Below are positions 11,801-63,446 of a DNA stretch of 64,000 nucleotides, piece after piece. The notes beneath the pieces were generated by a model, which saw only the letters and a list, made by a program, of their open reading frames with translations, had not been told where the DNA came from and ran no database searches. The stretch is from Gracilariopsis chorda. Its lineage: Eukaryota; Rhodophyta; Florideophyceae; Gracilariales; Gracilariaceae. The stretch covers positions 186,001 through 250,000 of the forward strand of contig NBIV01000039.1 in NCBI GenBank assembly GCA_003194525.1, in the 5' to 3' direction. Position 1 is the first letter of the stretch. Each line of letters starts with the position of its first letter. A program made the position numbers and the translations under genes.

Positions 11801-14050
11801 AAAATGGTTAGCCTTGCAGGCCCGGCCGAAGACCATGCCAAACATTTCTCGACTTCCTCGCTGGTTGTAGGGGTACACTACTCCATACATCGTCTTTCAC
11901 GGCCTGATGATACCTTGTATGAATGCACGAGACAACTCCGATATGACATAGATAATAATGTAGCAGAAGGGATACACTTCCAATGCAACTCAGATAAAGT
12001 TTTGATATATAGCTCATTCCGGCAGCATATATGAGCGAGTGTCGCGTAAGAATCCGATATACATTTCCATGTTTTTGATAGGGTTTGAACCATTTTCACA
12101 TGTAGGAAATTCTGAATTATGTTGAACATATATAGAACTCTCATGGAAACTTTACCAGTGCGTATATTAAGTATACCACTTTCATATCTTGAGCGTATCA
12201 AACATGTCATCTGCAATACCAACTAGATATCAATCAAGGGTCACTTATGTATCAGCCATGCATCATAAATACGTCTTCTAACGACATCTTTTCTATATCT
12301 AAACGATATCTTGGATTTCTACTAGGCTCCTCCGTATCAATTTCCATAATCGCCACAGGAGCAGAATAGATATCCCAACTACTGCATTATTAGGTAATAT
12401 TGTGGGATTGTCACGGATATTGCTCATGATGACTACAAATAGCTGATTTGGCAGCACGTTCATAACTACATTTGCCATGAGTTATTGGTGTTTCATTACG
12501 AACTTGAAATGGTTTTGTAACAGAACCAGACCTCATGATTCGCATACATTGGTGGCGACAAGTTGCGTCATAGGCGGTGTGATTAGCGTGTTTGACAACT
12601 GGCTTTGTTATATACTGCGCATGTAGGGGTCTTGGAGCTAGTGGGGGCAGACTGGGATTTAAGGTGAAAGGAGACGATTGGGAATGGCTTTAATTGATGA
12701 AAAGTTCGCTTTTTTACGAGTATGGATTGCCATAAAATAGCTATGAAAAAAGCTCGTCGCTAGACGTTCTAACAAGAAACCAAGTCCTGGATGTAAATCG
12801 AACCAATGTGGCACACAGTAAGAGTATTACACGAATGTCCATTGGCTGACGCAATGCGTGTGTAACCCTCGGTGACATCCCTTTCTGTTCCTTTCTTTCG
12901 CACCCCAGTTATGAGACCTTTTGATGTACTAAATTTGCTATTGTTAACGTGTCAATCACCGCCGTAAACGTCTTCGAGGTAGTCGAGTTCAATCCCAATA
13001 CTCCGTGTATGTTTCAGTAATCCTTCCTCATGACCCCGACTGAGTCATCCAGGTCTACCACTGGTCCAAAGCGTACACCTGACTCGACACTCTCGTTCTC
13101 GTGTCCTCTGGTTTCGTGTTTTCTTCTGTTCTTGTAGTATGTGATTCCGGTGGTATGAGGTGGCAATTCTGAGAAAGATAACACGTATTTATTCTTCCCT
13201 CTGGCATTTTTCATATGTCTTCGGCACCGCAAATTCAACTTGTCCGTCTAGGTACTCGGCCGTGGTTCTTTGGTCTTCGACTATGTTGACCTGCCGTTGC
13301 GTCTCCGGTCTCGTCAATGGAGTTGCTGTTAGGAACTGGGGTGCAATGGTTAAGAATGGTGGCAGTCGACGGTGATGATCCGATTTGAAGTTCGGAGTAT
13401 CCACCGGTGTTTATATAGAGGTTCTAGCCTAGTTCTATCAGTGCCAATAGTCAATGAGTAGTCTTCCAAGTCTAACGGCATTATGCTTCGTCTTCTCGTT
13501 GGCCTCCATATGTGGGTTCTTTACCGGGTTCAATGCCAGATCTAGCCGTTTGATGACTGGAAGAATTCCCCAGCTGATGACTTGTTCTATGAAATGGAAA
13601 TGATAAGCAACAGACAGGGTTTCGATGATCTGGCATAACCCCAAAGTGCTGATGATGACTTGGCATGGATCTCTCGGGAACCTTCTATGACTGTTTGATC
13701 ATTTCTGTACCATGTGAGGTGTTTATCAACGTTGTAAGTATCAGGGAACGTGTATTCTGGAGCCAAATTTGTCGGAGTGGTCGGTCGGGGCTTTTCTGAC
13801 ATAGGCCTGTTGTTGTGTCGTATTGACATTATGTCACAAAAGCCTCCGTGTTCTCGGAATGCTAGATAGACGTGATATATCGCAAGTTTCTTAGGCAAAA
13901 GCTCAAAAATACTACGAAAATGATACATTCTGCTCGTTTCTTGCACTTGCCAAGTAAAAAAAAAACTTTGGAATTCACACTTCCATATCTTACAGAGCCT
14001 TGCCTCACCTGCACTGTGCATCGCTAGTTTCATGTTCGGAGCAAGTTCAT
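8840..14050. other. No recognisable gene; decayed intergenic or repeat DNA
   Basis: Many short frames but no conserved motif that I trust. A pyrimidine-rich run with a 'ttttatag' box occurs at about 9,840-9,910. Minus-strand frames at 13,014-14,057 look faintly coding (several adjacent frames of ordinary composition) but match nothing I know. I call no gene here. Confidence 0.4.
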
Positions 14051-14075
14051 TCTCCACTAAAAGCTAGATACAGAT

Positions 14076-14118
14076 CTCAAAATGGCGCTGGCCACGCAGC
14101 GGCTAGCGCCATTTCGAG
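14076..14118. repeat. Hairpin near the left end of the giant element
   Basis: Two 18-base arms (14,076-14,093 and 14,101-14,118) pair with two mismatches around a 7-base loop. The perfect core is 'aaatggcgct' with 'agcgccattt'. It lies about 20 bp inside the candidate left terminus. Sub-terminal hairpins are common binding or structural sites in DNA transposons; that role here is inference. Confidence 0.75.
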
Positions 14119-14316
14119 CACCCAACCAAAACTAACATTTTTATTTCCATCTCTTGAATTTCAAACTTCATACTGCCCTAGTTTGACTTCCAACTCATCC
14201 TCAGGAACTCATCTGGGCAGCTCTCTCCGTTCTCACACACCCGACGCACCACGCATCAGATTCCAATACCACCCATTCCGTCGTCCCAACAGCCTCAACG
14301 ACACTCCTAAACATCA

Positions 14317-15003
14317 CTAGCCTTCTTCTCTCTCTTCCCTCTTTCCGTGCCTCCTCTTCATCCAAATCTTAATCTCCAATCCTTCTTCGTCCTTCTCCTC
14401 CAATTTCCTTTTCATGCCCCCTCTACCTCCAGGAGTAACCGGAGACCCACTCCCGACAGCACCTCCCACCCCACCTTCCCCTCCACTTCCATATATCTTG
14501 TTCCGCATATCCTCGACTAGATGCACAGCCCTGTCCACCACTAAAAGCCGCTTCTCCAACTCCAAAATCAGTCCTCGCAACTCCTCATTCTCCTTCCACA
14601 GCCTCCTCAGCTCCTCTTCCACACACGCCACAACCCCATCGACGGGCTGCTCTCCCCACCCCCCAGCCTCCCTCACCCTCCGGCGCAACTCAGCCCCAGC
14701 ACCCATCGGCACTCCTTCCTCCGACGCACTCAAAACCATCCCTCCCAACTCCACGAAAACCTCCTCAATACACTCATCCAAACGCTCCTTAAGCCCTCCC
14801 CCAGCGCTCCTCAATAGTTCCTTCACATCGCGGTAGAACCCATCCATTCGCCTCCCTCCACCTCCCCCTACCCCTCCTCCTCGACCACCCTTGCCCGCAC
14901 CTCCCTCCCCACCATCCCCTCCCATCATCGTCCCTACCCCAAGCTCATTGACCAAAAATTGCAAATAGTAGTCATGGTGCGTGTGGATGTTCTCAAATGA
15001 CAT
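14317..15003 (-). CDS. Gly-rich coiled-coil protein with basic C-terminus, function unknown
   Basis: Intact 228-codon ATG-initiated frame. Residues about 22-50 are almost all Gly with a few charged residues. Residues about 125-150 form a leucine-rich coiled coil containing 'LRRLWKENEELRGLILELE'. A second Gly-rich stretch follows, and the C-terminus has two basic clusters (KRK and MKRRHGKRE) that resemble a bipartite nuclear localisation signal. I recognise no domain. It is the leftmost gene of the giant element, transcribed toward the left end. It may be a DNA-binding accessory or transposition helper, but that is guesswork. The base composition is strongly skewed by the Gly-rich coding. Confidence 0.55.
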   Translation of the reverse strand: MSFENIHTHHDYYLQFLVNELGVGTMMGGDGGEGGAGKGGRGGGVGGGGGRRMDGFYRDVKELLRSAGGGLKERLDECIEEVFVELGGMVLSASEEGVPMGAGAELRRRVREAGGWGEQPVDGVVACVEEELRRLWKENEELRGLILELEKRLLVVDRAVHLVEDMRNKIYGSGGEGGVGGAVGSGSPVTPGGRGGMKRKLEEKDEEGLEIKIWMKRRHGKREEREEG

Positions 15004-15074
15004 GAATCTTCAAGAGTCGTGAATGAATGTTCAACAGTCGTGAATGAATTTTCAAAAGTCGATAATGAATGTCC
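15001..15074. repeat. 21-bp tandem repeat, about 3.5 copies
   Basis: Units of the type 'aatgaatgttcaacagtcgt' plus one base occur at 15,001-15,021, 15,022-15,042 and 15,043-15,063, with a partial fourth. They sit directly upstream of the coiled-coil gene's ATG. On the minus strand they could encode a seven-residue repeat (SFTTVEH-like), but that frame is not the gene's frame. Confidence 0.8.
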
Positions 15075-15670
15075 CACCTCTTCACTTGGATCAACTTTAT
15101 CACTGCTTAAATGCACAGCTTATCATCTTCTCATTTGCTCACCCCTTGTCCTTCCCAACACACAAAACAATATTTTGAACCTCTACACGATAATGCCTTC
15201 ACCCTCTTCACTCTTCTCCATACATCAAGCACGCCACAATGCATTCATGTATGAAAAGAACCAGTACTTAATATGTCAACAGAATGGACAATCGCGGTAT
15301 TTGGCTATAACAACGGGATCCTTCACATCCGTACAATCACGTTCAATTCTCATACATAATCCCATACTTAATTTTAAATCCATTCGTGTTTCATATGAGC
15401 GGCCCCTTCATTCTCCCCTCCAATACACCCATCCCAAGTTTCTCCTCATACTTGTAGACCTTTCTTTATGGAATATAACAAAGCGAAATCTTTGTAGACA
15501 TCATCCCTTCATTACTACGCATCATTCGAATGAAGCCGCATAAAAATTAATCCCCATCGTAGTAAACCTCTCCCATTCAATATAAACATTCACTATAAAC
15601 ATTCATTATAAAGATCAAAAAGCAATCATCAGATTTAACAAACGTATATCCCTAGTTTACTTATCATTAT
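15075..15670. other. Non-coding AT-rich spacer of the giant element
   Basis: Lies between the start of the coiled-coil gene and the end of the ParB-oxygenase gene. It contains a short tandem run of 'tataaacattca'-type units at about 15,580-15,615, and AATAAA-like A-rich stretches that could serve 3'-end formation. No gene is visible. Confidence 0.5.
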
Positions 15671-15675
15671 CAATC

Positions 15676-17205
15676 GCTTTCATCGTCCTCACCTATCAGA
15701 CCCGCTGCTCCTTTAGGAACCATTTCACCCTCATCGTCATCCTCCTGTTCATAATCTCCATCAGTGTTCATTTCCGCTGGATTCAGCGTCCTCCTCATCC
15801 GACGGGTTCTCACCTTCGGCTTCATGCATAACTACATCTCTATCGTCAGCTTCATGTTCCCGCTCCTCTTCCCCTCCTCCCACCTCACATAAATCGCCAC
15901 GGTCCTCTTCATCATTAAAAAAGGGAGGGCGAAAACCGCTTTGCCTATGCACCCCATCCGGGAGATTTTATCCCTCAGGTACAAAGTACATATGGTATCG
16001 CATGCAATAGCCTTTCGCTATTGCATAATTGTACCCAGCCCCAGCATGGAATACATCCCCTCTTCCATTGAACACAGAAAACGGTGTAACTCTGAACTTC
16101 CGAACCATAGTAGAAGCCGAAAGCTCTTTCACGTTACCCCGTGTCATTGTTAGAGTATGTGACCGTTCACAAACCCAAATCATGAACGCATCCGGTCCCG
16201 ATGGCATTGCAAAATACCCCGGGTTCACATTTGTCATCCTGTCATTCTCCGTCAAACCCCTGAACTCCATGTGTAGCACCTGCCTCGGGCAATCCTCTCC
16301 AGTACAAAGGATACGGCCACCCGTGTGAAGACATACATCGTTCCACCTTCAGACAACCTGAGAGCCGCTGCAATCTGACCGAGCCTTGCATCGAACATGG
16401 CTCTCTTTCGACCATGAACCGCACTCTTTTCAAGCTCCTCAATTCTGTCCGCAATCCCTCGTTTGGTTGTGATGAAACGCCCCACCGCCTTGATACCATT
16501 CTTAACATCCTTTACCCCTCCTTCCTTGATGATCATATTCCAGAAAACATGATTTGCTTCGTTCGTGAGATCTGGTTGCAAAACAAAGTCGCGTTTGAAG
16601 AAGTCCATCAGTTCTCCTATCACATCTTCATCCATTTGCAGTCCCCTCTTCGAAGCCTCACTTTCCATGCCTTCATCTTTCCCGAAATTCTCCAGCACGC
16701 AAAACCCTCTCTCCGACAGCTCCACTATTTTCTTCGCAAATTAAACACGAACCAAGTCCTCTCTCTCAAAAGTGCCCATCCACAACGCTTCCTCTTCATT
16801 CGATGCCGTTCCTGATGACGGCATATTCACGCCCAGTACTGCACGTGTCGTAGTACCCATCTCTTTGTGCATGTTGCGTGACGCACGCCAGTATACAGCA
16901 TGATGAACCATTCGGAAGTAATCAGGTGACAGGCACTCCGCCCCATGGTGCTTCTTCAGATTTATCCTCTGCATCCATGGATGGGAATGCTTCACTGCAT
17001 TTCCGCTTGCAGGCCACTCACTCGGGAAAGAGTATACCTGGTCCATTCAAGACATGTCCGCTCCCATAGCCAGCTCTCCTGGAGTACTTAAGCCAGCTGG
17101 AAGCTTGTCAAGATTCTTATCTACAAAGCTGCCTGCGGTTTGCTGCTCCTCCGCCTCGTCTTCCTCATCATCCACAAAGTCCTTCTGAGCTTCATTCTCG
17201 CTTGA
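15676..17205 (-). pseudogene. 2OG-Fe(II) oxygenase-like domain plus acidic tail, continuing the ParB frame
   Basis: Immediately after the ParB frame's TAG the same frame reads on, interrupted by TGA (17,047-17,049) and TAA (16,741-16,743). A one-base-type frame change lies near 16,330 and another TAA at 15,968-15,970. Translation shows an opening 'IVELSERGFCVLENF', typical of 2OG oxygenases, then 'RQVLHMEF' (first metal His at about 16,271, HxE instead of the usual HxD). Next come 'SGPDAFMIWVCERSH', 'GDVFHAGAGY' (second metal His at about 16,047) and 'MRYHMY' (2OG-binding Arg at about 15,999). An Asp/Glu-rich tail follows at 15,960-15,676, with one more frame change near 15,765. The layout resembles oxygenases with the 'GD..HAG..Y....R.H.Y' ending; membership in TET/JBP proper is not shown. 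Confidence 0.65.
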
Positions 17206-19446
17206 CTAGAGCACAACGATCTCCTGTGCTGTCAAACACCTCTTCAAATCTCTCTTTTCCATACTACGCAGCACCTCCACCACCTCCTGCGAGATACCAA
17301 AGCCAGGTCGCTTCACACCAGGAGCAGTCGGCTTACGATTCGATCGTCTCTGTCTCTTGACCGGTGGCTCAAAATCAACTGACTCTTCATCTTCATCTTC
17401 GTCCAGGACCTCCACTTTACGCTTCTTTGAGACTCGCTTACTTCTTCGAGACTCCTGGTCAGCGTTTGGAGGCTCCTGAGCAGCGTCCTCATTCAGACCA
17501 AGCAACTCGATCACGTCCACATCGGCCGCAGAGGGTGCAGCAGCAGTAGTGTCCTGTCCCTGCATGCCCGACACAGCGCTGGACAACCTCCTACGAACCT
17601 CTTTAACCTTATTACTCACTCTGGACTCTATTGAACTGCGGTTCCCTTTCGTATACCACTTTCCCAGACGAGATATGATATACTTTGACACAGTCTGGTC
17701 AGAATAGCCGATGGTAACCGTGGTATTCATCAGTTCCTGTACATTCTTTTTCTCCTTCATGGAACTCCCCAGCTCACTGCAATTGTCATACGTTCTAGAA
17801 GCGCAGTCGAAGAAGTACTTTCGGAAATCCTCAAACGGTCCCATCTTCACAGTGGCCGCCGACCTCACTCGAACATGCGCCTGTCGACATTGGATAGTAA
17901 AACGAAACGTATCCCCTGACATTCCAAGCACAATATCACTAGACACATGAGTGATTTCAATTTGAGGCGTCTCCTGCCACACACAATCGAAGAACTCTAA
18001 CAGACCGGGATTACGCGCCAACTTCAGAGCAAGAGCAGAATGGCGATTGAAATGACGTATCTTCCCTTCTTTCCCCTTTGTCTCACTGCTCCACAACACC
18101 CCCGTGATTTGGCTTGGTTTAAGCTTCGACAACTCATACCCATCCTGCTCTACGCCATTACGAATAAACGAAACAGCAGTGTGAATCGTATCTGCGAAGG
18201 ACATCACCAGAACATTGGAGCTCAAATCATTCAACGTCTTCCCCAGCCACAATACCTCATTCAATGTCATTCTCAGGCCGTAGTTCCGTTCCGAAAGCGT
18301 GGCGTTAAAACCAGCAGTAATCCCTGCCCATCTCACACCATCCTGCTCGAGGTCCAGTAGAACAATCACTCGATGGAAGCCGTCCACCAAAACCACAGGA
18401 AATATCAAACGCCCACTCGCATCAATAGCGTCACGAACCGACACATCCTCCAACAGGGCCACTGTAATCGACCCAGGAGAAGGGAGCCATCCAAATTTCC
18501 TCAGTTTGTTCGAAGTATCACGAAGATGTTTCTCATTCTTCGAACGAGCCATGTTCTTCGGAGATCGAATGTTGTGGATATCGATTACGCAATTGTGCTG
18601 GTCATAATCATCTCGATTGATGTCTAAGACCCCCAAACTGTTATCCACTTCTTCCGAAGGAACAGCATCACCGTCATCAAATAAGACCCTCTCTTCCGGA
18701 TCAAGATCATTTCTGGAGAGTACAGGCACCTCTATGACGTCATCATCGGAGCTTGCTCCGACTTCAGGGCCTCCTCCGTTTCCAGATCCGCCCGCGAGAG
18801 CACCGGATGTTCCTCTACTGCTCTGACGGGTTTTCACCGGAGCCTCTCCACCGCTCTCAAGGCTCTTCACTGGCGCTTTGGCCACCAAAATGCTTGATGG
18901 TGTACCAGGAACAGCGGGAAGGCGCCTGACTTGTCTTGCAGTGGTCCTGGAAGCTGTACTTCTGTGGACAATCTTCACATTTGCTCCTGACTGCGGTGGA
19001 ACCGACTCATTCCCTTCTCCGCCTTCATTTTTGACACTCATCATCGCAGTGTCCCATGCATATAAACCCGCTGAAACCATGTCCTTCAAAGTTGCGGGCG
19101 GTTCCTTGGGACCACCAAAAACATAAGGGTACTTCTCATCTTGGAGTGACGAAATATTTGTCTTAAAGATAACCACCAAGTCCTCTCCAGGTCTCTGAAT
19201 AGAGGACAGGGGATGGATGTGTAGTGAACGACAGAGTCTCGTCCCCGGCCCCCCAGCAACCACCACACCGCGCAATTTCGCCTCTCCTACCTTCACCTTC
19301 GCATCACTACTCCCAACTCGTACGAACAGATTGACCTCCGCATCGCCCTTAAGCACCTGGCCCGTATTGCCCCCAATTGATGGCTCAGGGTGGCTGGCAG
19401 TTCGTGTGGCGCCCCGGCTCTTCGCCTTGCCTCGAGTGGTCGGCAT
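17206..19446 (-). CDS. ParB/sulfiredoxin-like domain protein (N-terminal part of a larger fusion)
   Basis: Open frame of 746 codons from the first ATG (a longer frame to 19,548 has no ATG). The N-terminus is Lys/Arg-rich. About residues 290-366 show a ParB/sulfiredoxin-like fold signature: 'IHNIRSP', then 'LRKFGWLPSPGSITVALL', then 'VVLVDGFHRVIVLL'. The DGxHR motif is the family's nucleotide/active-site signature. The C-terminal third is charged with basic NLS-like clusters. The same frame continues after the TAG at 17,206 into a probable oxygenase domain, so this is best read as the front of a ParB-oxygenase fusion cut by a premature stop. ParB-like domains bind or cleave DNA, or hydrolyse nucleotides (family knowledge); the activity here is unknown. 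It is divergent from the methyltransferase-SET gene. Confidence 0.7.
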   Translation of the reverse strand: MPTTRGKAKSRGATRTASHPEPSIGGNTGQVLKGDAEVNLFVRVGSSDAKVKVGEAKLRGVVVAGGPGTRLCRSLHIHPLSSIQRPGEDLVVIFKTNISSLQDEKYPYVFGGPKEPPATLKDMVSAGLYAWDTAMMSVKNEGGEGNESVPPQSGANVKIVHRSTASRTTARQVRRLPAVPGTPSSILVAKAPVKSLESGGEAPVKTRQSSRGTSGALAGGSGNGGGPEVGASSDDDVIEVPVLSRNDLDPEERVLFDDGDAVPSEEVDNSLGVLDINRDDYDQHNCVIDIHNIRSPKNMARSKNEKHLRDTSNKLRKFGWLPSPGSITVALLEDVSVRDAIDASGRLIFPVVLVDGFHRVIVLLDLEQDGVRWAGITAGFNATLSERNYGLRMTLNEVLWLGKTLNDLSSNVLVMSFADTIHTAVSFIRNGVEQDGYELSKLKPSQITGVLWSSETKGKEGKIRHFNRHSALALKLARNPGLLEFFDCVWQETPQIEITHVSSDIVLGMSGDTFRFTIQCRQAHVRVRSAATVKMGPFEDFRKYFFDCASRTYDNCSELGSSMKEKKNVQELMNTTVTIGYSDQTVSKYIISRLGKWYTKGNRSSIESRVSNKVKEVRRRLSSAVSGMQGQDTTAAAPSAADVDVIELLGLNEDAAQEPPNADQESRRSKRVSKKRKVEVLDEDEDEESVDFEPPVKRQRRSNRKPTAPGVKRPGFGISQEVVEVLRSMEKRDLKRCLTAQEIVVL

Positions 19447-19589
19447 GTTGATAACACGTCTCTTCAGCGAAACAGGCTTCCTCTGAGTCCGTTTCCGTGA
19501 TGGCGCGTTTATCTTATTCCCAGTGGAATCAATGGCTGAGTACTTCAAAGTTCACGCCTGCGTTTTCTTGGCACCAGCTGACGTCGAAT

Positions 19590-19918
19590 GCTCCCGTGAG
19601 CACGTATGCTTGGTTCAGAAGAGATGGACGTAAGCACTATATATCGTTTTCAAGACGTTTCATGACATCCATTATCGTCAACGTAGCATCCCTGCAGTTC
19701 CCCTCCCAATTAATTGCATTGCAAAAAGAAATTGATAATTTTTCGGTCGAGGACCATGGTCCGACGTGTCGTGGTGCGCCATCACGAACATGATGAAGCG
19801 CCAGGACGTGAAATGTTAATTAAAATTTCGCGTCATGGCGCTTCATCGTGTTCGCGATGGAGCACAATGACACCTCGGACCACGGTCCTCGACCTGAAAC
19901 GAAGAGAAACATAATCCG
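19590..19918. repeat. 329-bp direct repeat, copy 1
   Basis: Runs from 'gctcccgtgagcacg' to 'gaagagaaacataatccg' and matches 20,079-20,406 almost base for base. It contains the block 'agagatggacgtaagcact' and a long palindrome at 19,745-19,894. A 160-bp unique spacer separates the copies. Confidence 0.9.
19745..19894. repeat. Long palindrome with 59-bp arms, copy 1
   Basis: Arms 19,745-19,803 and 19,836-19,894 pair over their whole length with some mismatches, leaving a 32-base AT-rich loop. Each arm also contains smaller self-complementary segments (GGACCATGGTCC-type and a hairpin of the CCATC..GATGG type), so the site could fold as a branched structure. Confidence 0.85.
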
Positions 19919-20078
19919 TGGCAACCAAGTCGAAAGGGACTTGCGCATTCTTCGCAACCGCATTTGTTGCGTCGGTTTGGGCGATTGAAAACTTCTATTG
20001 AACCCGAAGAACAACTTTTTCTTGTTAAACAAAGCACCGGAGTGGTCGTCTCCAACAGTGTTACCCCTTTCTTTTGAA

Positions 20079-20406
20079 GCTCCCGTGATCACGCCTGCTT
20101 GGTTCCAAAGAGATGGACGTAAGCACTATATATCGTTTTCAAGACGTTTCATGACATCCATCTGTCGTCATCGTAGCATCTCTGCAATTCCCCTCCCAAT
20201 TACTTGCATTGCAAAAAACATTTCATAACTTTTTGGTCGAGGACCATGGTCCGAGGTGTCGTGGTGCTCCATCGCGAACACGATGGAGCGCCAGGCATGA
20301 ATTTTAATTAAAATTTCGCGTCATGGCGCTCCATCGTGTTCGCGATGGAGCACCGTGACATCTCGAACCACGGTCCTCGACCCGAAACGAAGAGAAACAT
20401 AATCCG
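20079..20406. repeat. 328-bp direct repeat, copy 2
   Basis: Second copy of the 19,590-19,918 repeat, ending 21 bp before the methyltransferase-SET ATG. Differences are scattered substitutions, so the duplication is not brand new. Confidence 0.9.
20235..20382. repeat. Long palindrome with 59-bp arms, copy 2
   Basis: Arms 20,235-20,293 and 20,324-20,382 pair with few mismatches. The 30-base loop contains the perfect 16-base palindrome 'aattttaattaaaatt' (20,300-20,315). Inside the left arm, 'ggaccatggtcc' is a perfect 12-base palindrome and 'gctccatcg'/'cgatggagc' form a 9-bp hairpin. The same half-sites recur in copy 1. This could be a binding site for the neighbouring ParB-like protein, a promoter operator or a folded replication/excision signal; all three are inference. 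Confidence 0.9.
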
Positions 20407-21480
20407 AAGGAAACGGGTTCATTCAAGATGCACGGAACCGGAGAAGAGCTTATTCATGCTTATCTTGCAGTTTGTGATGACTACACAGTGACGAGGCAAA
20501 ATGTGAATGAGCCGAGAAGTTTGAAGTACACCGACTTTGTGGAGTTCCCGGTTGAAAGTCGCAACGGTCATAACTCTTCCAAGAAAATGTTTCTCACCCT
20601 CATCAGACCGGATTACATCTCGTATTCGGAATCCGAGCTCCGTAACATGTCTCTCAGAGGCCCTCCACGTCAAATTTATCTTATGGCAAGAGTGGTGGAC
20701 GTAAAGGATCGTGAAGAAGACAGTCGTGTAAGGGACGTTTGGAAGGTTTTTTGTAAAAGGGAAGGGCTTAAAGGAATTCCCCGTAACGTGTTGCTATCTG
20801 TCTTTTGCAAGTCCCGTGTTCTGGGAGCAACCAAGAAATGTTCCGCTTTCCACACGGATCCTTGCACTGACTTTGAAAGAGTTATTGGGTTGTCTATGGT
20901 GCAAAAGATTGCCGTGGATAAGAAAGGAAGTGGTAGGAAGAGGAAAAGGGGCATGGCAGCTAAAAAGTTCTCGAAAGTGAGTTTGTCGGGCATGACCCAG
21001 AGTCAGAGAGTCGGGTATGATGTGCAGCTCGTGACCAGGGCTTGGGATTGTTTCGCCCAATTCCTCGGGTTTCCGAACATTGAGGTCATGATCTTGCCTT
21101 ACATTCGACTCGACTATATCAGTGTAGTCTTCACCGATATCGCACAACGCTCCATGGGCTTCTAACACAAAGATTGTTCCAAACAGTTTGTGGAGGAGAA
21201 GAATGTCACCACTGTGGAAGAAAATGTTACCAAATGGGCATGGAATCTGCTGGACCCAGTGGATACAGCGCTTTGCCTTTGTGCCAAAGAATACCTTGGT
21301 GACCTTTCTAATGTGGTGGTACAATAGAAACTGTTTGACATATCTGCTACCAGCAAATGGGATGCCCTCAAAAGGTTCATCATCACGAGAACGAGACTTT
21401 TCCCTCTGCGGTTTGAGAACTTTAGTGAATCTCTTGTTACTACGGTTCAAAATGCTATAAATCCTCTGAAGCTCATTTCA

Positions 21481-22727
21481 TTGCATGGAAGCAATGTCAA
21501 AGTACATCAAGCTGTGAAACCAGAGCCCACAGAAGACGTTGACATCATTATGGAGCCGGTAGATACTGGTATGGCTGGTGGTGGGAACGAACGTGCTGAG
21601 CGTGTGGAAGGTGGTGATCAGGGTGAGTTGGAAGAAGTGGAAGAGATAGAGTTGGTAGAGGATGCGGAAAGTGGTACTGCGGAACGTGGTACTGCACCAA
21701 AGGCCACTGAAGGACTGCAAACAACAGCTTTGTCACAGAACGTATCGTATGATGTCGAAGGCATGGGGATTCGTGCACCACCGTACCCTATGAATTTGGA
21801 TGATGTGATAGCTTACAAGTATTGTGAGAAGGAGATGTCCCGCAGCTTCCGTCTTCACAACTGCAAGTTCGAAATTCTCATCGAAGTTGACGACAACAAG
21901 TCTGGCGAAAGCGAGGTATCTATTGAAGGAAGGGTACAGTTCCTAGTTTCCGACCCGCCATATGGGACTCGTTCTGAGCGTCGTTTGGAGAACAGCCAAC
22001 ACGATATTTTGACAGAGAAGGGCATTAGCAGGTCAGCGAAGAGGTCGTCAAAGTTTCTATGTCCTGGTGGACATATTATACAGTTCTGCTCATGGGATCA
22101 GGTACCGTTGTGGCGGGATGTGCTACGGAAAGTTACCTACATGGATGAAACTGATACGATGCGTTACTCCTTTGTCGTCGACGAAGAGCCCCTCCATTTC
22201 GTACGGTCTTTAGGTAATACGACGGGTAACGTTGGGAGAAGAAGTTGCCGGTTGCACCAGACGACATAATAAGCTGTACATGCTGTTCATTCTGGAGTTC
22301 CTTATGCACAACAGCACCGGATGGTCAACTATGAGAACTTCAATTGTGTTTCTTCACGATACCCAGCGTATCATGCAATCATGGATCAGGTGCCACCGAT
22401 GTACAATAGTGAGATGCTCATGTGGTCTGTGAAAACCCCGGATGGGATTTATACGAGGAAGAGAGTTCGACCAGAACAGAAGTGTAGGGCACTGTTGAAA
22501 CAGCTGATTTGCAGGTTCAGTCAACCAGGAGACCTCGTGGTCGAAATGTTTGCCGGAACGTTCTCGACAGCGATGGCATGCGTGGAACTGCCCAAGCATC
22601 GGAATTTTGTGGGGTGTGAACCGGACAAAGCTTGCTTTGAACACGCCAGGAATGCCGCTATTGTTCGCTTTGCTTCCATAATACGGGAAGGACAAAGGGA
22701 TATTGAGAAGAGCCAGGAGCTTCGAAA
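21481..22727 (+). pseudogene. beta-class DNA amino-methyltransferase domain
   Basis: The motif order is IV then I. Motif IV 'LVSDPPYGTRSE' has DPPY at 21,952-21,963. Motif I is 'VVEMFAGTFSTAMAC' at about 22,537-22,580, followed by 'FVGCEPDKACFEHAR', which fits the 'F.G.e.d..y...a..R' ribose-binding strand. A DPPY catalytic motif placed before FxGxG defines beta-class N6-adenine or N4-cytosine methyltransferases (established knowledge). The second Gly of FxGxG is Phe here, which is unusual. A leading segment (about 21,700-21,900) precedes the motif IV domain. The reading frame is interrupted by the TAA TAA pair at 22,267-22,272, so this copy is inactive as it stands. Confidence 0.8.
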
Positions 22728-22757
22728 GATGGCCCATTGTGAAAGATGGCCCATTGT
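22724..22757. repeat. 17-bp tandem duplication inside the methyltransferase-SET gene
   Basis: 'gaaagatggcccattgt' occurs twice in direct succession (22,724-22,740 and 22,741-22,757). Because 17 is not a multiple of three, it shifts the methyltransferase frame off the SET frame. The perfect identity of the two units suggests a recent event. Confidence 0.95.
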
Positions 22758-22871
22758 GATTCCTCTGCATTCCCAATGGGACGAAGCAGGCACACCGTGT
22801 TATGGAGGGCTGTCGACTGATTTCCACCGTACCAAATTCTTCCCCCATACCTTTTCAACTTTCTCTCCACT

Positions 22872-23597
22872 TTGTGGCAAAGTGAAATTCTAGGGAAGTT
22901 GGGAAGGAAGAAAGCTATGGATGGATGGCTGAGGGAGCTGCAGGGAAGAATGAATCTGGAGAACATGAAGTCTCTATTGGCAATGGAGGCTGTGCAATAT
23001 GGGTTGGGAGTGGGCAAGTCTACTATTCGTCACGAAAAGGCTGGTGTTGGAGTGTTTGCAACTCGTCGAATTGCTGCAGGCGAGGTAGTGTGCTATTTCT
23101 ACGGGACGTTGGTTTATCATGACCTCTCGAATCAGAAAGAAGTGCACAAGACCTACGGCGAGGGAGTCATGGGTGTGACGAAGGATCGTTTCCGGAAGTA
23201 TGCGGTGTAGATAGAAGTCTACGGTCAACAGTTCCAATCACTTCCAAATCGAAAAAAGCTGACGAATTGGCATGGAAAACAAGCAAACCCCATTTTATGG
23301 GTGGTTCCTGCCCCTTTTTGTATTGCGAGGTATATCAAAGATCCAAAGTACGTGGAAGGTGATAAATAGTTAGATGCCATGGTGGATGGCCTCGTGAAAA
23401 AAAGGGAGGCTAATGTGCGAATGAAACGAACACCGGGAGTGGGGCGAACACCAGGGGGAATAACGGACTACAAACTTATTAAGATGGAGGCGACAGCCAA
23501 CATAGAGCAACGAGAGGAACTCCTCGCCAGATACGGTGATGTTTATGACTGGAAAACCCATTTGAATGTGGAGGATGGAAAGATAGTCATTGACTAG
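22872..23597 (+). pseudogene. SET-domain (lysine methyltransferase-like) C-terminal half
   Basis: The frame carries the SET opening 'GVGVFATRRIAAGEVV' and 'YFYGTLV' at about 23,043-23,115, matching 'G.GvfA...i..Ge...eY.G'. A central 'IARYIKDPKY' block (about 23,325-23,355) takes the place of the 'RfiNHsC' pseudoknot motif. The ending 'EELLARYGDVYDW' (about 23,514-23,550) matches 'gEEL...YG..yw'. Two in-frame TAG codons (23,208 and 23,367) interrupt it. SET enzymes transfer methyl groups to protein lysines, often on histones. The changed central motif leaves the activity uncertain. It is probably fused to the upstream DNA methyltransferase. Confidence 0.75.
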
Positions 23598-23895
23598 TTT
23601 GTTGTTATAAACCTTTGTCCACAGCTTGGCTAAAGGGCGACGTTTATTATTTGAACGGATTTGCAGTCCTAACTTAGGAGAACACCACTTTTTAGTAAGG
23701 ATAGAAGATAAAAAGCGATATAGATGTGACACAGAAACATCCATTTTCGGTACCACGGATGATTGTATTCTCAAGATTTCACAAAAAAACAAAGATTTTT
23801 GTGCGCATTCGGTGGCGAGATTTTCTCGGACATCACACGGCGTGCAACATCCCAGAGCGTCACTCGCCACTTGCGCAAGAGGTTTGAATCCAAGA

Positions 23896-26223
23896 ATGGC
23901 GCCGAAGGGAAAGAAGCGAGGCCCGGCAAGGGGTGGTGCGGCGAGTGCGCCTAAGACGCGGCGAAAGGCTATTGAGGAGCGAACTGCGAGTGGAAGGAAA
24001 GCGAAATCATGTGTTCCCAGGAGCGGATTATCGGGGAGGAGGTCAGGAGAAGGTGCTTCGAAGAGAGAGGAAAGAGGTGGGGCAAAGAACGCCGGATCCG
24101 AGCGCACGACGAGTGAGCGCACGAAGAGTGAGAATTTGAAGGCTGATGCCCATGCGCATGTAGCACGCAGGAGAGATTCGGGTCGGGGACAGCGATCTAT
24201 GCCTGGGTCTGGTGGTGGGGTGGAGGGTAAGAAAGGGTCGGTTGCTAGGAGAAGGGAAGAGGTACCAGATCAGGGAGGGTTGAAAGCAAATACGCAGGTC
24301 GAAGACCAAAATAAAGATGAAGAAATGCCGGAAAGGAAAAAAATGGAAGAGGCAGTTGCGCTGAAGAGATGTGGAGCCCCAAGGGGAAATCAATATGGAG
24401 GAGAGGTAAATGTCCCTTTGGTAGAGAGTGATGGGGACGAAGAGGATCACATTGTGAAGGAGAGATGGAAGAGAGAGAGAATAAAGGAAGGACTGGGACG
24501 CCGCTCTGATTTAAAGGAAGCGCAAGAAGTGGAAGAAGTGGTCAGAGGGACGGATGAAATACAGGAAGCATCGAAAAGCGGAGAACGTACGAGCACCCCG
24601 GTACGGGCGCAAAAGGTGCAAATGGCTCAAGACTTGAAAAGTGATAAAGGAAGCATAACGCCAGGGACTCCGGAAGGAATGCGTGAGAGGAAACGAAGTG
24701 TTCATCGGTCGCCAAGTGAGCCTGCTAAGGAGCGACGGCTGCCTGTCAATATTTTGGGAGATGCAGAGAATGACGACATCGGTGTGATGTGTCGATCTTC
24801 GTTAGTTGAGAGGTTCAATATGTTGAAGGCAAAACTCGGGCAGATCAAAGAGGACCACTGCAGCCTAAAGATGTCGCTGAAGCTGACGCAAGAGGAACTG
24901 AAGAGGATGAGAGAAGAGATGAGCGAGAAGAATTTGCTGATAGATAGCTTACGGGAAGGGATGAAGGTGAGACGAGGGGAGAGAAAGGGATCTGAAGGTG
25001 AAAAGGAATTGCGAGGGCGTAGGAAGTATGTTGTTGATGTGCAAGAGGGTTTTTATGGGTTTGTCAGGGTTGTATATGATAGGTTGTTTTACTATGCGAA
25101 GGTGGAGGTATCGGAGCTTTGTTTTACTTTGGGGGTTGTGGAAAGGAACTGGACGAATCGATGCGAAGTATTGGGGAAGGGAAAAGAGGGGAGTGTGTTT
25201 GTTGTGGGAGGAAAGGCGATTGCACCTCGATGTCCGTTTGTGATTGCGTTTGAGATGAGGTCATACACGCTTTCGTCGCGAGGAGGAAGTAATGAACTAT
25301 TGAAGTACTTGGTTGGCGTTGAGATTGAGGGGGAGAGATGGGAGTCGATTCGTGAAGCGGGTAGGAAGGATCAATGCGTGCGGGAGTTTGTTGCGGACAG
25401 TTGTTTGAGGGAAAGTATGAAGCAGAAGTTGAGTGATGTGATTGGGGTTCGGAAGCGTGTGGCACGGGACAAAATGTTTTCGTTGCTTGGATATGACTTG
25501 ATAGCCAGACGTGTGAGATCGCGAAAGGGGACGGAGCTATATATTGAGTTGAAGAAGCAGTTAGAGGAAGCAAAGACGAAGTTCAAGGGGGATGGGGAGG
25601 CGAAGAGCGGTAGTTTATGTTCCTCAAGGATGAAAACAATCGAAGATCTTACGTATTCTAGATTTCAGGTTGTTGTGTGGCTGAGAGAGTTTAGTGAAGG
25701 GGACATGTACTTCAAGAAAGGGGCTGCGGTGTACGTTTTGGAAGAATTCATGGGATATGAGGTGGGAACGGAAAGGGAGGGAAAGATGGAGTACGTTTAT
25801 GGGACAGTGATGCATTTGGCTCGTTTGGATGCGTGGATCGGATGTGTTTTGACGGCAATGGACACAGATGTGGGGCGTGGAGGAAGACGGCAGTTGTTAT
25901 TTTCTACGTTTTATGTTGTGAATCTTCCGCTCGTGGGAGAGAATATACTTGGTGTGGCGTGGGAGAGGGTGAGAGAGCTACATCATGAAGAATTGGAGAA
26001 TGAATGTTGCGATGATGGTGACCCGCGTTGTATAGCTGGCAATGGGGATACAGAAGTGACGGTATCGCTGTGGATACGTTCAAAGCGGAGGATACACCTG
26101 GCAGTGAAGGATGAATACGTTTTGGAACATATAACGAAACGGCTGGGAGGGGTGCTGGACTGTTATGTTGCTGCGTGTCGGCCAGAAGATGTGTGGATGA
26201 AGAGGTTGGTGAAAGAGAGTTGA
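23896..26223 (+). CDS. Large basic/coiled-coil protein with C-terminal globular domain, function unknown
   Basis: Intact 775-codon frame from ATG 23,896 (the frame is open further upstream but without a better start; 'aagaATGgc' is a fair context). Residues 1-290 are Lys/Arg/Glu-rich and disordered. About residues 300-360 form a coiled coil containing 'SLKLTQEELKRMREEMSEK'. The remaining 400 residues look globular, with a block 'KLSDVIGVRKRVARDKMF' and many aromatic and hydrophobic segments. I recognise no domain. It is the best preserved gene in the element and ends 112 bp from the converging transposase. Its intact state beside broken neighbours suggests it is either younger or more recently selected. 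It could be a DNA-binding partner of the transposase; that is inference. Confidence 0.7.
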   Translation: MAPKGKKRGPARGGAASAPKTRRKAIEERTASGRKAKSCVPRSGLSGRRSGEGASKREERGGAKNAGSERTTSERTKSENLKADAHAHVARRRDSGRGQRSMPGSGGGVEGKKGSVARRREEVPDQGGLKANTQVEDQNKDEEMPERKKMEEAVALKRCGAPRGNQYGGEVNVPLVESDGDEEDHIVKERWKRERIKEGLGRRSDLKEAQEVEEVVRGTDEIQEASKSGERTSTPVRAQKVQMAQDLKSDKGSITPGTPEGMRERKRSVHRSPSEPAKERRLPVNILGDAENDDIGVMCRSSLVERFNMLKAKLGQIKEDHCSLKMSLKLTQEELKRMREEMSEKNLLIDSLREGMKVRRGERKGSEGEKELRGRRKYVVDVQEGFYGFVRVVYDRLFYYAKVEVSELCFTLGVVERNWTNRCEVLGKGKEGSVFVVGGKAIAPRCPFVIAFEMRSYTLSSRGGSNELLKYLVGVEIEGERWESIREAGRKDQCVREFVADSCLRESMKQKLSDVIGVRKRVARDKMFSLLGYDLIARRVRSRKGTELYIELKKQLEEAKTKFKGDGEAKSGSLCSSRMKTIEDLTYSRFQVVVWLREFSEGDMYFKKGAAVYVLEEFMGYEVGTEREGKMEYVYGTVMHLARLDAWIGCVLTAMDTDVGRGGRRQLLFSTFYVVNLPLVGENILGVAWERVRELHHEELENECCDDGDPRCIAGNGDTEVTVSLWIRSKRRIHLAVKDEYVLEHITKRLGGVLDCYVAACRPEDVWMKRLVKES

Positions 26224-26335
26224 GATTTTGGGAGAGGTGAGGCGACGGATCATGTCGAGGCGCAGTGGGAGGAAGGTCTGGGAGGTTATGAAGAACAAGT
26301 TGAAGAAGAATAGTGTTACTGGTGGGACGGGTGGT

Positions 26336-29300
26336 TTACTGATGTGTTGTAGATTGTGGGGCGTAAGGCTTTGAAGAGGGGTCACGACAGAATCGGTTGA
26401 TGTAGAAACGATGGAAATGCCAGTGAAGACGAGGAGTGAATTGCGGGGCGGGGTAGTTTTCTCCAATTACATGGACTGCACGTAGAATGGAGGTGGAAGG
26501 AATGAGGCCGAACCAAGGAGATACGTTGTCGTCGGTGGAAGGTTTGGAGATGGGAACTGGATCGGTGGTGTGGTCCCGCTCGTCATCGGTTGACCACCGA
26601 AGGCAGACGCAGTTGAGGGTGATATTGAAATTGTCATGGGGTGGTACAAGTTCAAGGAATAGTACGAAAGCGAATTCCTTTGTAATTGGGGTGGAAGAGC
26701 TTGAAGAAGGGGAAAGTAGTTTGAAGCGAACTAGGGAAATGAGCTTGGAGACCCATACAGTGGGTGTGGATGGAGAGGAGGAGTTGTTTCCTGCGACAAG
26801 GATATGGGAGAACTTTGGTAATCTGGAAGGTCCGAATGATGGAACGGCGAAGATGCGCGGGAGGAGAGGGACGGAGGGTTTTTGGAGGACGAGTTCGTTT
26901 CGTTCTTGGTTGTAATTTTGTAGTGTTGGGATGTAACCGCCGACGACGTATGCAGAGTTGACGAAGGTGAGACGAGTTTGACGGAGGTTGATGGGTGAGG
27001 GATTTAGCTTGAGATATTCGATGGAAAGGAAGACGAAGGAATGAAGTATGGTGGGACCTAGTTGTGAGATGATGGAGAGCGTGTCTGAGGAGAAGAGTTC
27101 TTGAAGAAATTTTGGACTTGCGTTGGGGGTGGATGCAAGGTACTTTGCGGCTGTGAAGATGTCGTAGAAGGAAAGATGTTTTCCGTCACGTACAAAGGAG
27201 GTTTTGCGTGGTTGCGGTTGAGTTTGAGTTCGAGCATGGGAGGATAGGGAAGGGTCTGCGGAAATTGGATTCCATTCTTTGAAGAGATTGGAGCGGTCAA
27301 TAGCACGGATGGTTCTTGTATGGGCGGTGGCACTTCGCTTGGAAGTTTTGGAGTAATGTGATTTGAAGAGGACGTGGGCGTGCTCGAAGATGCCTGCGTC
27401 GTTGAAGTGGAGACCCCCGTACCGGCGTATGTCTTCGACGATGTGGTCGAGGAGGTGGAACTTGAGGGTGCCGGGGTGACAGAATTGGTAGGGTCCGAGA
27501 ATGGATGCGGCTGTGACTTTGAAGGATCTGATGTGTTTTTCGAGAGATAGGAGGGAAGTTTCTTTCCATTCGGTGGACGAGTTGTATCGCATAGCGGAGA
27601 GAAGGAGGTCTGTGTACTTGGTAAAGGCAGAAGTGTTGGGGGAGGAGTCGGTTTCTTTGCAGCATCTGTCGAATAAGGCGCCGATGAAGGGGAGGAACAT
27701 GTCGAGGGTGCGGTAATCCTTTGCTTCCAGCATTCCTCGTAAGCCTTCTGTGGTGAAAAAAGCCGTTGAGGGCTTGGGAGTTGTCGGTTGTGGAGAAGTC
27801 GTTGTAGCGGCCGGGTGCGGGGAGTTCTTTTCGATGGCGGCGAGGATGGAGTTGGAGTATTTGAGGATTGAGGTGCGGATGGAATGGAAGGAGCGTTTGG
27901 TGTTGTTGGGGCCGACTGTGGTGAAGAGTGATTCGGTGCGAAGTCGTTCGATGGCGATGGCTTTGGTAAGCTTTGAGACGCCGAGGTGGAAGTTTTGAAG
28001 GGGTTCGAAGGCCAAGATGTTGTAAGAGGGGAGAAGGGGAGTGATGTTAAGAATGGCGTAAGATTCGAAGACAGACGGATACTTTGCGAGGGAGAGGGAC
28101 TGGAGGACTCTGGTTGCTTGTAACTTTTCGGTGCGAGCGATTTTTGGCTTGCGGGCAAGCTGGGCTTCGTCGGACTGGCGAAGGAGAGCGGCGTGTTCTC
28201 TGCGTTTGTTTCGAGCCTGGGATTGTGTGCGGAAGTGGATGGGGTTTGTGTCGAGGGAGAGGTGTTCGCGGGGGACGGTACATCTGGGGCAGGGGTGCTG
28301 TGGTCGTTTTCCGTGCGAGATGGCGAGGATGTCTTTTTCCTCTGGAATTTCTGCACAGTAGCGGGAGAGGATGGGGTGGCAGTGGCGGAGTTCACTGTGG
28401 GCGTCACGGAATGAGAAACCGAGGAGGGCGGAAGAGAGGAGTGGGTTGAGGATTGCAGAGATGGTGCGCTGAATGAGGTTCATTCTTGTTTTGCGTGGGA
28501 TGTTGGAGGACGAATGTGGGATGAAGTCTGCGAGGTCGGGGAGGAAGAGGGAGAGAAGGAGGTTGGGAGGTATCCGAGGAGGGTGAGGTTTTCGGAGATA
28601 CACTTTCGGTGGAATGCGTCTGAGAACTTGATAAAGGTGATGTGAAGGGGATATGAGTTGATGGAGGAGCTCTTGAGTGAGGTGGCGGACTTATCGGAGT
28701 ATAACTGGACGAGACCGACGAAAGATTCCATACCGGTGGTTTCGGGGGTGTGCCAGACGATGTCATTGATGTGGCACTGCATGATGGCTTGTTTGAAGGC
28801 AGGAACGACTTTGTTTCCAAAGGCTGCAGCCACAGGATGGGCGAAGGCAGGGTTGTTGCTTCAGGACGTCTGTGGCGCGTTTTTGGAAGAGGGTTACGTA
28901 CAAGGAGTTGTGCTCGTCGGTGAGTGTGAGAGGGGAGAGTCCGGTGGAGCTGATGCGTTCTTTGAGGAGGTGTTCTTGGAGTGCGAGGCACTGCTTTGCG
29001 GGGTAGATGGATTTCTGGAAGGCTGACTTGGAGAAGTCAGGGTAGTTGAGAAGGGAGATGAGTTCGTTGGCTTTGCGTGTGCTGAAGGAGGAAGCGATGG
29101 AGGAGATGAAGAGGACGATTTGCTCGAGATGGGCGTTGTTGAGGAGAAGGGAGGGGGATTGGGACGACGTATGAGGAGGTGGGTTTGAGGAGGAGACTGA
29201 ATAGAGGGCGAGACTTGCCATGTGGTGTGCGTCTTGTGTTTGGAGGGAAAGAGAGGCCTGTTGGATGTGATAGGGTTCATCTTCGGCGAGGGGGACGTTT

Positions 29301-29518
29301 TCGGAGGGGTGGTGTGAGGGAGTGGGAGGAGGAATGGTGGAGAGGTTTGGAACGGATTTTCGTCGCTTGGTCCTTGGAGGGAACTGGACGGGAGCGTTGG
29401 CGGAGGAGGAAGGGTATTTGTCAGGGGTGAGTCGATGAGGGCACCTGCGTTGGTGGTTCTGGGGAGAGAACGCGGTGTGGCCATAGAAGGTGCAACGGGG
29501 ATGGCAACGGGGTATCAT
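26336..29518 (-). pseudogene. Plavaka/CACTA-like (KDZ-related) transposase
   Basis: About 1,060 codons from ATG 29,518 to TAA 26,336. The N-terminus has Cys/His spacing (RCHPRC...HQRRC) like the zinc finger of Plavaka-type transposases. The catalytic core follows: 'DIVWHTPETTG..SFVGLVQLYSDK' (first Asp at about 28,694), 'SINSYPLHITF', 'YCAEIPEEKDIL', 'PCPRC', 'FEPLQNFHLGVSK', and 'KFHLLDHIVEDIRRYGG' with 'AGIFEHAHVLFKSHY' (catalytic Glu at about 27,384). This string of motifs is the D-(D)-E RNase H transposase pattern of the CACTA/KDZ group. The middle part (about 28,560-28,840) lies in another frame than both ends, so two compensating frame changes interrupt it. It is the rightmost gene, reading inward from the right end. 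Confidence 0.8.
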
Positions 29519-30740
29519 GTCGGGGGAAGGAGAACGGAGAACGGGATGCTTGGAAACAGAGAAGGGAGGGTGGTGGCGGAGTGGGATATCGGGGAGTGTA
29601 ATATTATGACGCACGTAGATGAGGTGGTGCACGTGATGCAGAGCGTCTTTTCATAGGGCGTGGGGTAGAGCATGCGATGCAGGGAGCAGGTCGGGCAACG
29701 GGTGATAGAAAGCCAAAGCTATTTGGTTATGTAAAAGCTATGTATCTATTCTATCTATTCCATCTATTCTATTCTGCTATTTGAAGCGGCACTCGCTCAG
29801 GACCAGTAAGATTTGGATTCCACGTGCACCTGAGAGGGTAGGTATTAGTGTAGTCTGGCGCTAGTTTTACCTCCAAAGAAACTGGGAAATGTCTAGTATA
29901 CTACTAGTCTTTTGTCCCAGGCAAACTAGCTCTGTGCTATGTATGGAATTATTTTGAGAAATTTGATTCATTCAAAATTGGGTTTGAAGAGTCGTTATTC
30001 GTTCATTTTAATTCTTTGCCTTTTGAATGCCAAACTAGCATAACGAGAACACCGACGAGATACCAATTCGGCTTTGAGGTCAGGTAGACATGTCAAATAG
30101 GTAACCGATCTCTTCAGGAGATCGGTTAGAATAAAAATTGGAAAAGTACAAACGTTAAAACTGATGCTGGATCCAACTATACTCAAAGAAAGTTCGAATA
30201 GTAACTAAATCTAACATTTGCGTACTTTGAACTCCTTAGCTTAGCAGTGGTTCTCAGGGGAAAGGGCCTGTGGAAGTAAGTATTGGCTCAGCACAATTCA
30301 TAAATCGCCTCCCTTTCCGCAATGGTTTCTTTACGAATGGCTTCAGGCATGTACTTAGTGCAGTCACATGACCGGGCCGTGGAAAGACAAATATAACATG
30401 TCTGATTGTACTTCGCTTTGAGGTCATTTCTGGGGGTAGTTGGAGAATTATTGGGTATCATTGGGAGCGATGGGATGGTTGTTCTTGACGAAAAGGCCGA
30501 TTGTGCTCCTGACGGGGCTAAAGAGAGACTAACCGCAAGGGCGTGTGCGTTGTTCGAAATCCGTAAGTCTGAAACCATTTATGATGGAGACTCTACCATA
30601 TAGGCCTGAGATCTTCTCGTCAGGGATCTCTTGTGGCCGCTGGTATCTTTCTAACCCTTCCGACGGGACTTCCTGCAGGACTTGCCATATCATCGGGCAT
30701 ACGTCACCAGTTGATATCGCGTGAGGTCCAGGTGGGCAGT
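29519..30740. other. Right end of the giant element and flank; no gene
   Basis: Holds the transposase leader, a short 'tctat'-type simple repeat at 29,742-29,775 and the candidate right terminus at 29,846-29,850. Beyond about 29,860 the DNA is decayed. Minus-strand frames at 30,288-30,762 may correspond to the antisense frames that precede the other LTR-like repeat near 40.8 kb, but the match is weak. Confidence 0.4.
29742..29775. repeat. TATTC/CTATTC-type simple repeat
   Basis: Imperfect runs of 'tatctattctatctattc' in the sub-terminal part of the giant element. Confidence 0.8.
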
Positions 30741-48350: not shown

Positions 48351-48451
48351 TTTGGTAGCACCGCGCTTCCGCATTCCCCTTTACTGAACTTGGCAACAAT
48401 TCAACAGTTCCTATCTTCTTCGAGACACAAACGCACATCTCCCTCGGCGAC

Positions 48452-63359: not shown

Positions 63360-63446
63360 TCTTCTTGCCCGGAAATATATTGGCTTATCAACAGTGAGCT
63401 CGAAGGAATGTGAGACGGGGACATCGGCAGGGCGCAGATCTGTTAG

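Follow-up and report, generated by a model that had tools for sequence, protein, structure and literature searches.

We report that a Plavaka-type DNA transposon of the red alga Gracilariopsis chorda carries a pair of divergently transcribed genes that forms a conserved, co-inherited unit of the element. The transposon lies in a 64,000-nucleotide stretch of contig NBIV01000039.1 (positions 186,001 to 250,000; hereafter the window, on contig C39 in our numbering), which was compared with the whole genome of 91.3 Mb in 1081 contigs; other copies are named below by their contigs. One gene of the pair encodes a ParB/sulfiredoxin-like domain, a putative 2-oxoglutarate- and Fe(II)-dependent (2OG-Fe(II)) oxygenase and an acidic tail, and the other joins a beta-class DNA methyltransferase to a candidate SET domain.

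A divergent gene pair retained across transposon families

The first-pass annotation of this DNA had assigned the pair to a giant transposon, and our comparison bears this out. An element of 16,215 bp occupies positions 13843-30057; its inverted termini are imperfect (CGTCGGTGTTCTCGG; read as CGTCGGTG..CACCGACG), and it is flanked by a 2-bp target duplication, AG. Its boundaries were defined by the ends that the window has in common with copies on C230, C286, C204, and C332. Matching 2-bp flanks were present in seven of the eight copies read, the window copy among them; the copy on C286 has no matching target duplication and is perhaps chimeric. The Plavaka profile (PF18759) scored 38 bits (1.4e-9) in the window and 77 bits (1.7e-21) in a young copy, with a cut-off of 26.3 bits. 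Of the DDE residues and the C(2)C and H(3-4)H motifs that mark Plavaka transposases, CPRC was noted in the transposase region, at 28271-28291. By transposase profile, inverted termini and 2-bp target duplication, the element belongs to the Plavaka superfamily. The gene order from left to right is gene A (-), gene B (-, in the young family), ParB-oxygenase (-), spacer, methyltransferase-SET (+), a gene of ~820 aa (+), and the Plavaka transposase (-).

13843..13867, + strand: left terminal inverted repeat (type CGTCGGTGTTCTCGGAATGCTAGAT); AG target duplication at 13841-13842, identical end in the copies on C230, C286, and C204
15673..19446, - strand: ParB-oxygenase gene, interrupted by stops; 59-79% identity to the open relative P0002 over three aligned stretches
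19447..20427, no strand: shared divergent spacer of 981 bp, between the two ATGs
20428..23597, + strand: methyltransferase-SET gene, interrupted; ATG at 20428, Pfam matches and relatives
26339..29691, - strand: Plavaka transposase gene, interrupted; Pfam Plavaka 1.4e-9 on 26336-28603, and tblastn
30031..30057, - strand: right terminal inverted repeat; AG target duplication at 30058-30059

The ParB-oxygenase gene begins at a conserved ATG (MPTTRGKAKS) at 19446 and ends near 15673. The distance between its ATG and that of its neighbor is 981 bp, the length proposed earlier for a shared divergent control region. Genome-wide, the ParB gene has at least 70 matches and the methyltransferase at least 151 (matches listed, some of them pieces of one copy), numbers that exceed chance. 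Among the places listed, 113 for ParB after fragment rows of one copy were dropped, 70 have a methyltransferase match within 9 kb, and the two are divergent in all 70, so the arrangement is not a neighbor accident of this locus. The other 43 ParB places have no listed methyltransferase match within that distance, for which the scope of the listing, contig ends, and deletions can account only in part. On the methyltransferase side, 148 listed places were used, leaving aside the second rows of C8 and C22. For 78 of them no ParB place is listed at a distance of up to 9 kb; at least some of these 78 are deletion derivatives, such as that on C34.

The pair is retained across families that are only 26-37% (ParB regions) and 32-35% (methyltransferase-SET) identical to a young family represented on C204, C550, C31, and C332, whose copies are ~99% identical to one another. 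Between families, the ratio of nonsynonymous to synonymous substitution rates (dN/dS) was 0.13-0.31 for the ParB-oxygenase and 0.10-0.25 for the methyltransferase-SET gene, compared with 0.22 for the transposase; dS to the young family is ~0.8-1.6, near saturation, which makes these ratios rough. Purifying selection on the pair between families, resembling that on the transposase, is shown by these values. Among copies of one family, dN/dS rises to 0.5-1.2, reflecting decay after insertion. The window copy is itself decayed, both genes of the pair being interrupted. In the young family, the ParB-oxygenase is a single open frame of 1417 codons on C204 and C550 (P0002), with stops on C31 and C332, and the methyltransferase-SET gene is a single open frame of 1065 codons on C332 (P0001). 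The two open frames thus come from different copies, and no one copy read has both open.

The element is present in more than a hundred copies. With 0-1 mismatch, the genome contains at least 100 ends of each side, left and right, and no match to either pattern reversed. Totals at two mismatches (176 left, 168 right) were rejected as copy numbers because each pattern then also fits some ends of the opposite side. Among the 100 + 100 ends listed, 57 left-right pairs lie less than 22 kb apart, and 44 of these span less than 12 kb, which by length are internal-deletion forms. On C23 and C210, the methyltransferase-SET gene and nearly all of the ParB-oxygenase gene have been lost; on C34, nearly all of the ParB-oxygenase gene and the N-terminal part of the methyltransferase-SET gene are gone. 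Short elements also recur at set lengths (five of 7.98 kb), and the 7.2-kb element at C34:63843-71070, read whole, lacks part of the transposase.

Domains of the two proteins and the spacer between their genes

The domains were placed as follows, all with approximate limits.

17923..18684, - strand: ParB N-domain plus helical (helix-turn-helix-like) domain; motif positions and fold of the homologous P0002 region
15971..16713, - strand: 2OG-Fe(II) oxygenase domain; motifs, and fold comparison of a poor model
15673..15920, - strand: acidic C-terminal tail; tblastn to P0002 1205-1417, and P0002 composition
21949..22893, + strand: beta-class DNA amino-methyltransferase domain; Pfam N6_N4_Mtase 9e-9 on 22321-22893, and motifs
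23040..23597, + strand: SET domain; Pfam SET 0.0026 on the window piece, below cut-off

All four domain assignments of the first-pass annotation withstood testing, though to differing degrees. Neither outcome that it had named as refuting its reading was observed, since a ParB fold and an oxygenase signature are present and other copies keep the divergent pair. The predicted ParB/sulfiredoxin-like domain is supported by structure comparison (the top 22 rows) together with its nucleotide box. GxHR or GERR is the nucleotide-box motif of the ParB/sulfiredoxin superfamily; the window copy reads LVDGFHR at 18370-18390, and [LI][VI]DGxHR occurs in 10 of 10 aligned rows. ParB, Noc, and KorB are the proteins that its fold matches best, and the longest alignments take in the helical domain. 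The acidic tail likewise stood, with 36 D/E among 87 residues of P0002.

In the oxygenase, the supposed metal and cosubstrate residues, HxD/E, a distal H and an R, are mostly conserved: the window copy has VLHMEF (HME, where most copies read have HTD) within 16253-16279, GRGDVFHAG (distal H) at 16040-16066, and RYHMY (R) within 15971-16000. Among eight in-genome rows, HTD is found in six, HTE in one, and QTD in one, and all eight retain the distal H and the R. The double-stranded beta-helix fold is suggested only by a poor model, whose listed neighbors in structure comparison are 2OG oxygenases other than TET/JBP. Pfam scans of the window pieces matched neither a ParB nor an oxygenase profile, whole P0002 had no match in Pfam, NCBIfam, PHROGs, PADLOC, PDB, or a 5.8-billion-protein set, and the profiles A1 and A2 gave one chance match and none, respectively, against PDB. 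Searched as a profile against the 5.8-billion-protein set, the oxygenase part found five proteins. Two belong to Gracilaria domingensis, also a red alga, with identities of 42% (E value 1e-115) and 33% (8e-105). A TET/JBP assignment gained no support: the Tet_JBP profile matched none of the eight members scanned and nothing in the genome, although it matched nothing in any control genome either. A viral or bacterial origin of the oxygenase was set aside, as no relatives were found in the viral or genome contigs searched.

The beta-class methyltransferase was recognized directly in the window pieces (N6_N4_Mtase, 9e-9), and the open relative P0001 gave 3.6e-18. SDPPYG lies within 21949-21978 and MFAGTF within 22546-22575; motif IV (DPPY) therefore precedes motif I (FAGT), which is the beta order. 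PF01555 matched all 16 family members, 13 of which read DPP[YF] and three DAP[YT]. Outside relatives comprise seven distant viral loci and five phage records 26-28% identical to the methyltransferase region. For the proposed SET domain, 12 of the 16 members match at E values up to 0.01 (best, 1.3e-7); the window piece falls below the Pfam threshold, and so, narrowly, does P0001 (2.2e-4; 22.0 bits, cut-off 22.4). INH is a canonical SET motif, and many of the rows read IND at that place. An N-terminal region of ~350 residues (P0001 residues ~40-400), with no Pfam match, can also be aligned in most full-length methyltransferase-SET relatives.

The spacer holds two palindromes of ~150-160 bp each, the only inverted repeats found in 42 kb of the window (seed 14, length at least 30).

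19741..19899, no strand: palindrome 1, ~86% self-complementary; inverted-repeat scan
20235..20382, no strand: palindrome 2, ~87% self-complementary; belongs to a second copy (90% identical) of the unit holding palindrome 1

Spacers of other copies differ in detail. That of C204, in the young family, has a perfect 86-bp palindrome and one of ~114 bp (91%), that of C637 has four of 74-84 bp (78-88%), and that of C435 has weaker, overlapping ones (74-77%); a stricter script listed palindromes for the window, C204, C332, and C637 and none for C435 and C230. No 12-mer is common to the palindromes of the four families compared, except between the window and the young family. The palindrome sequences thus vary between families while the arrangement persists. 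All of the best 40 of 109 candidates for the window-type palindrome unit, at 40 distinct places, sit 1.9-2.5 kb upstream of a methyltransferase match. ParB proteins bind palindromic sites, which makes the spacer palindromes natural candidate targets of the ParB-like protein.

The three derivatives on C34, C23, and C210, with different deletions on both sides, still have the greater part of the spacer, including one palindrome core, and a listed palindrome is present in 27 of the 44 elements shorter than 12 kb (best 40 candidates scored per list); C210 is one of the other 17, yet it has a palindrome on reading. An essential cis role for the palindrome was not upheld, since it is kept in these three derivatives but gone from those on C95 and C77, and we treat it as a lead only.

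Possible roles of the pair and related systems

We consider it quite possible, if somewhat short of probable, that this red-algal Plavaka transposon carries an epigenetic module of its own and counters silencing by marking itself. The methyltransferase-SET protein would methylate both DNA, producing N6-methyladenine (6mA), and a histone. Its ParB-like counterpart would bind, and perhaps spread from, the palindromic sites in the shared promoter, and the oxygenase that it bears would be carried along the element, oxidizing methylated bases, either the partner's 6mA or a host cytosine mark. Together, these activities might keep the element readable, let it escape host silencing, and set the timing of its movement. 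We infer the biochemical roles of both proteins, and our strongest doubts concern the substrate of the oxygenase and whether the ParB domain is a clamp, simply binds DNA, or cuts it as a nuclease. A bolder form of the proposal has a ParB-type DNA clamp at work in a eukaryotic nucleus: it would load at the spacer palindromes and slide along the transposon while the oxygenase edits the partner's adenine marks, giving a private, self-directed chromatin state. We regard this form as unlikely.

Besides the near-saturated divergence mentioned above, several observations weigh against anti-silencing by self-marking. Foldseek alone is weak for the ParB region (best E value 0.039), and the ENxxR motif of cytidine triphosphate-hydrolyzing ParBs is not evident; at the expected helix, placed by eye, an invariant N-D is preceded by L (LND). 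The oxygenase model is poor (predicted local distance difference test 42.9, predicted template modeling score 0.44), its Foldseek list (best E value 0.005) contains cupin-fold isomerases and unrelated chains as well as 2OG oxygenases, and three of the five outside relatives deviate from the motif set: P0015 has G for R, P0017 lacks the distal H and the R, and P0018 reads RTD. Two sister families have DAPY or DAPT in place of DPPY, C637 and C435 keeping the divergent pair (L027, L028, and L029). Copies without an intact pair have multiplied, as in the five 7.98-kb elements and in C34, C23, and C210, which were read. The module is not needed in cis, and the spread of these derivatives implies that the proteins of the pair can act in trans or are not required for every jump. 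The C95 derivative lacks palindromes altogether, and C77 has spacer flank but no palindrome. Finally, a review puts methylation in Gracilariopsis chorda at ~8% of the genome (PMC8566409), so that a cytosine substrate is conceivable for the oxygenase.

The oxygenase might instead remove specifically the 6mA written by its partner. The pair would then be a switch that times transposition or its own promoter rather than a protection from the host, a logic similar to that by which Dam controls bacterial transposons. Such a switch is favored by the opposing activities predicted for two divergent genes that share one spacer, and by the C5-methyltransferase profile PF00145, which had no match in the host genome by six-frame search (it was found in 10 of 14 control genomes, all prokaryotes). 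In addition, CcTET, a fungal TET related to transposon-borne ones, is reported to oxidize 6mA (PMC12730594). The oxygenase is nonetheless kept in families with a doubtful methyltransferase motif and has no TET/JBP or AlkB assignment, and we judge the switch to be an improbable, if serious, candidate. Hypermodification, in which the oxygenase turns a methylated base into a stable unusual one, as in some phages, for use as a shield or self mark, appears less probable still. One report describes how conflict elements of prokaryotes repeatedly contain ParB and methylase domains, and also a protein in which ParB is fused to an adenine methylase (PMC5512222), but a Pfam scan of the open frames of the element recognized no glycosyltransferase or other tailoring domain.

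According to the same report, some ParB-like domains, including ones in fusion with an adenine methylase, cut DNA as nonspecific nucleases (PMC5512222), which would suit a selfish restriction-like module that nicks or cuts DNA lacking the methyltransferase mark and so punishes loss of the element. The fold comparison, in which ParB, Noc, and KorB match best and the longest alignments extend over the helical domain, speaks against it, punishing loss would be needless at high copy number, and the conserved oxygenase would be left without explanation; we hold this module to be very improbable. That the two are unrelated host genes caught in the element by chance is compatible with the proliferation of derivatives lacking an intact pair, but it is contradicted by the 70 of 70 divergent pairs over deeply split families and by between-family dN/dS values like those of the transposase, and we practically discount it.

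The first-pass annotation had likened the pair to fungal KDZ transposons that travel with TET/JBP oxygenases. Corrections to this comparison are that the transposase is Plavaka and not of the KDZ group, that the oxygenase has no demonstrated TET/JBP identity, and that a red alga rather than a fungus is the host. The host genome encodes PsbO with an adjoining open frame for PsbU, and the best match of both is PDB 7y5e, which we take to be a red-algal photosystem. Closer counterparts were described by Kojima in 2025: fungal transposons, Plavaka among them, that carry TET/JBP oxygenases and that, according to this author, encode no additional protein for further modification (PMC12730594). TET-carrying Plavaka elements of Agaricales share with ours the Plavaka transposase, an element-borne 2OG-Fe(II) oxygenase, and the 2-bp target duplication (2 bp in PlavakaA; 2 or 3 bp in PlavakaB). 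They differ in their fungal host and in their termini, TGT..ACA or CATCA..TGATG compared with CGTCG..CGACG here (PMC12730594), and the algal element, which fits neither type of terminus and is therefore placed in neither PlavakaA nor PlavakaB, has its oxygenase joined to ParB and a DNA methyltransferase-SET gene besides.

Other systems share single traits, as far as the portions of the sources available go. Giant Plavaka-flanked repeats of Amoebidium also hold intron-poor genes in large Plavaka-linked repeats; the genes named there are tyrosine recombinases, matching dinoflagellates or red algae, and no ParB-oxygenase or methyltransferase-SET pair is mentioned (PMC11244446). N4CMT of bdelloid rotifers is likewise a beta-class, bacterial-type amino-methyltransferase fused to a chromatin domain in a eukaryote, but its gene belongs to the host, its chromatin domain is a chromodomain, and it marks transposons and contributes to their silencing, whereas the algal enzyme is transposon-borne, with SET and an oxygenase partner (PMC8885841). 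Prokaryotic proteins such as Bce_0392 team a ParB/Srx domain with an adenine methylase in one fused protein, with no oxygenase or SET mentioned (PMC5512222). HarbingerS and MuDR elements bring a SET histone methyltransferase onto a DNA transposon with another transposase, and no DNA methylase fusion is mentioned (via PMC12730594).

New here are the red-algal instead of fungal host and the tandem palindromes in the 981-bp spacer. Transposons with one chromatin- or base-modifying enzyme are known; for a writer, an oxidizer, ParB-type steering, and a histone-type methyltransferase on one element, we found no description in the literature searched (most subscription papers lie outside it), in agreement with the earlier view of the four-domain pair as an undescribed system. 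If the predicted activities are true, young copies in a red alga would offer a way to ask whether an enzyme writes 6mA as a mark in such a eukaryote and whether clamps of the ParB type function in eukaryotic nuclei.

Further features of the element and its surroundings

Two further genes of the element were located in the window.

14317..15003, - strand: gene A remnant; 165 aligned aa are 66% identical to an open frame of 276 aa in the young family
23611..26220, + strand: ~820-aa gene (length in the young family); 54% identity over 828 positions to the young-family open frame, coiled-coil-like by eye

Pfam scans matched neither the 276-aa relative of gene A nor the ~820-aa gene. Gene B is largely absent from the window copy; its protein, 33% identical between the two families checked (L009:2039-3289, - strand, and L027:1639-2940, + strand), has in each of them five hydrophobic stretches of 19 residues and is possibly a membrane protein carried by a DNA transposon. 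In L027 (C12:169001-179000), which belongs to another family, genes B and A lie in the order B-A on the plus strand before the methyltransferase, and the stretch read gives no ParB match; the left arm looks as though it had been inverted. GC skew is strong on both arms of the element, about -0.5 at 14000-16000 and about +0.5 at 24000-30000. To the right of the element, retrotransposon polyproteins with reverse transcriptase and RNase H Pfam matches are found at 48359-50734 (+ strand) and 61602-63446 (- strand).

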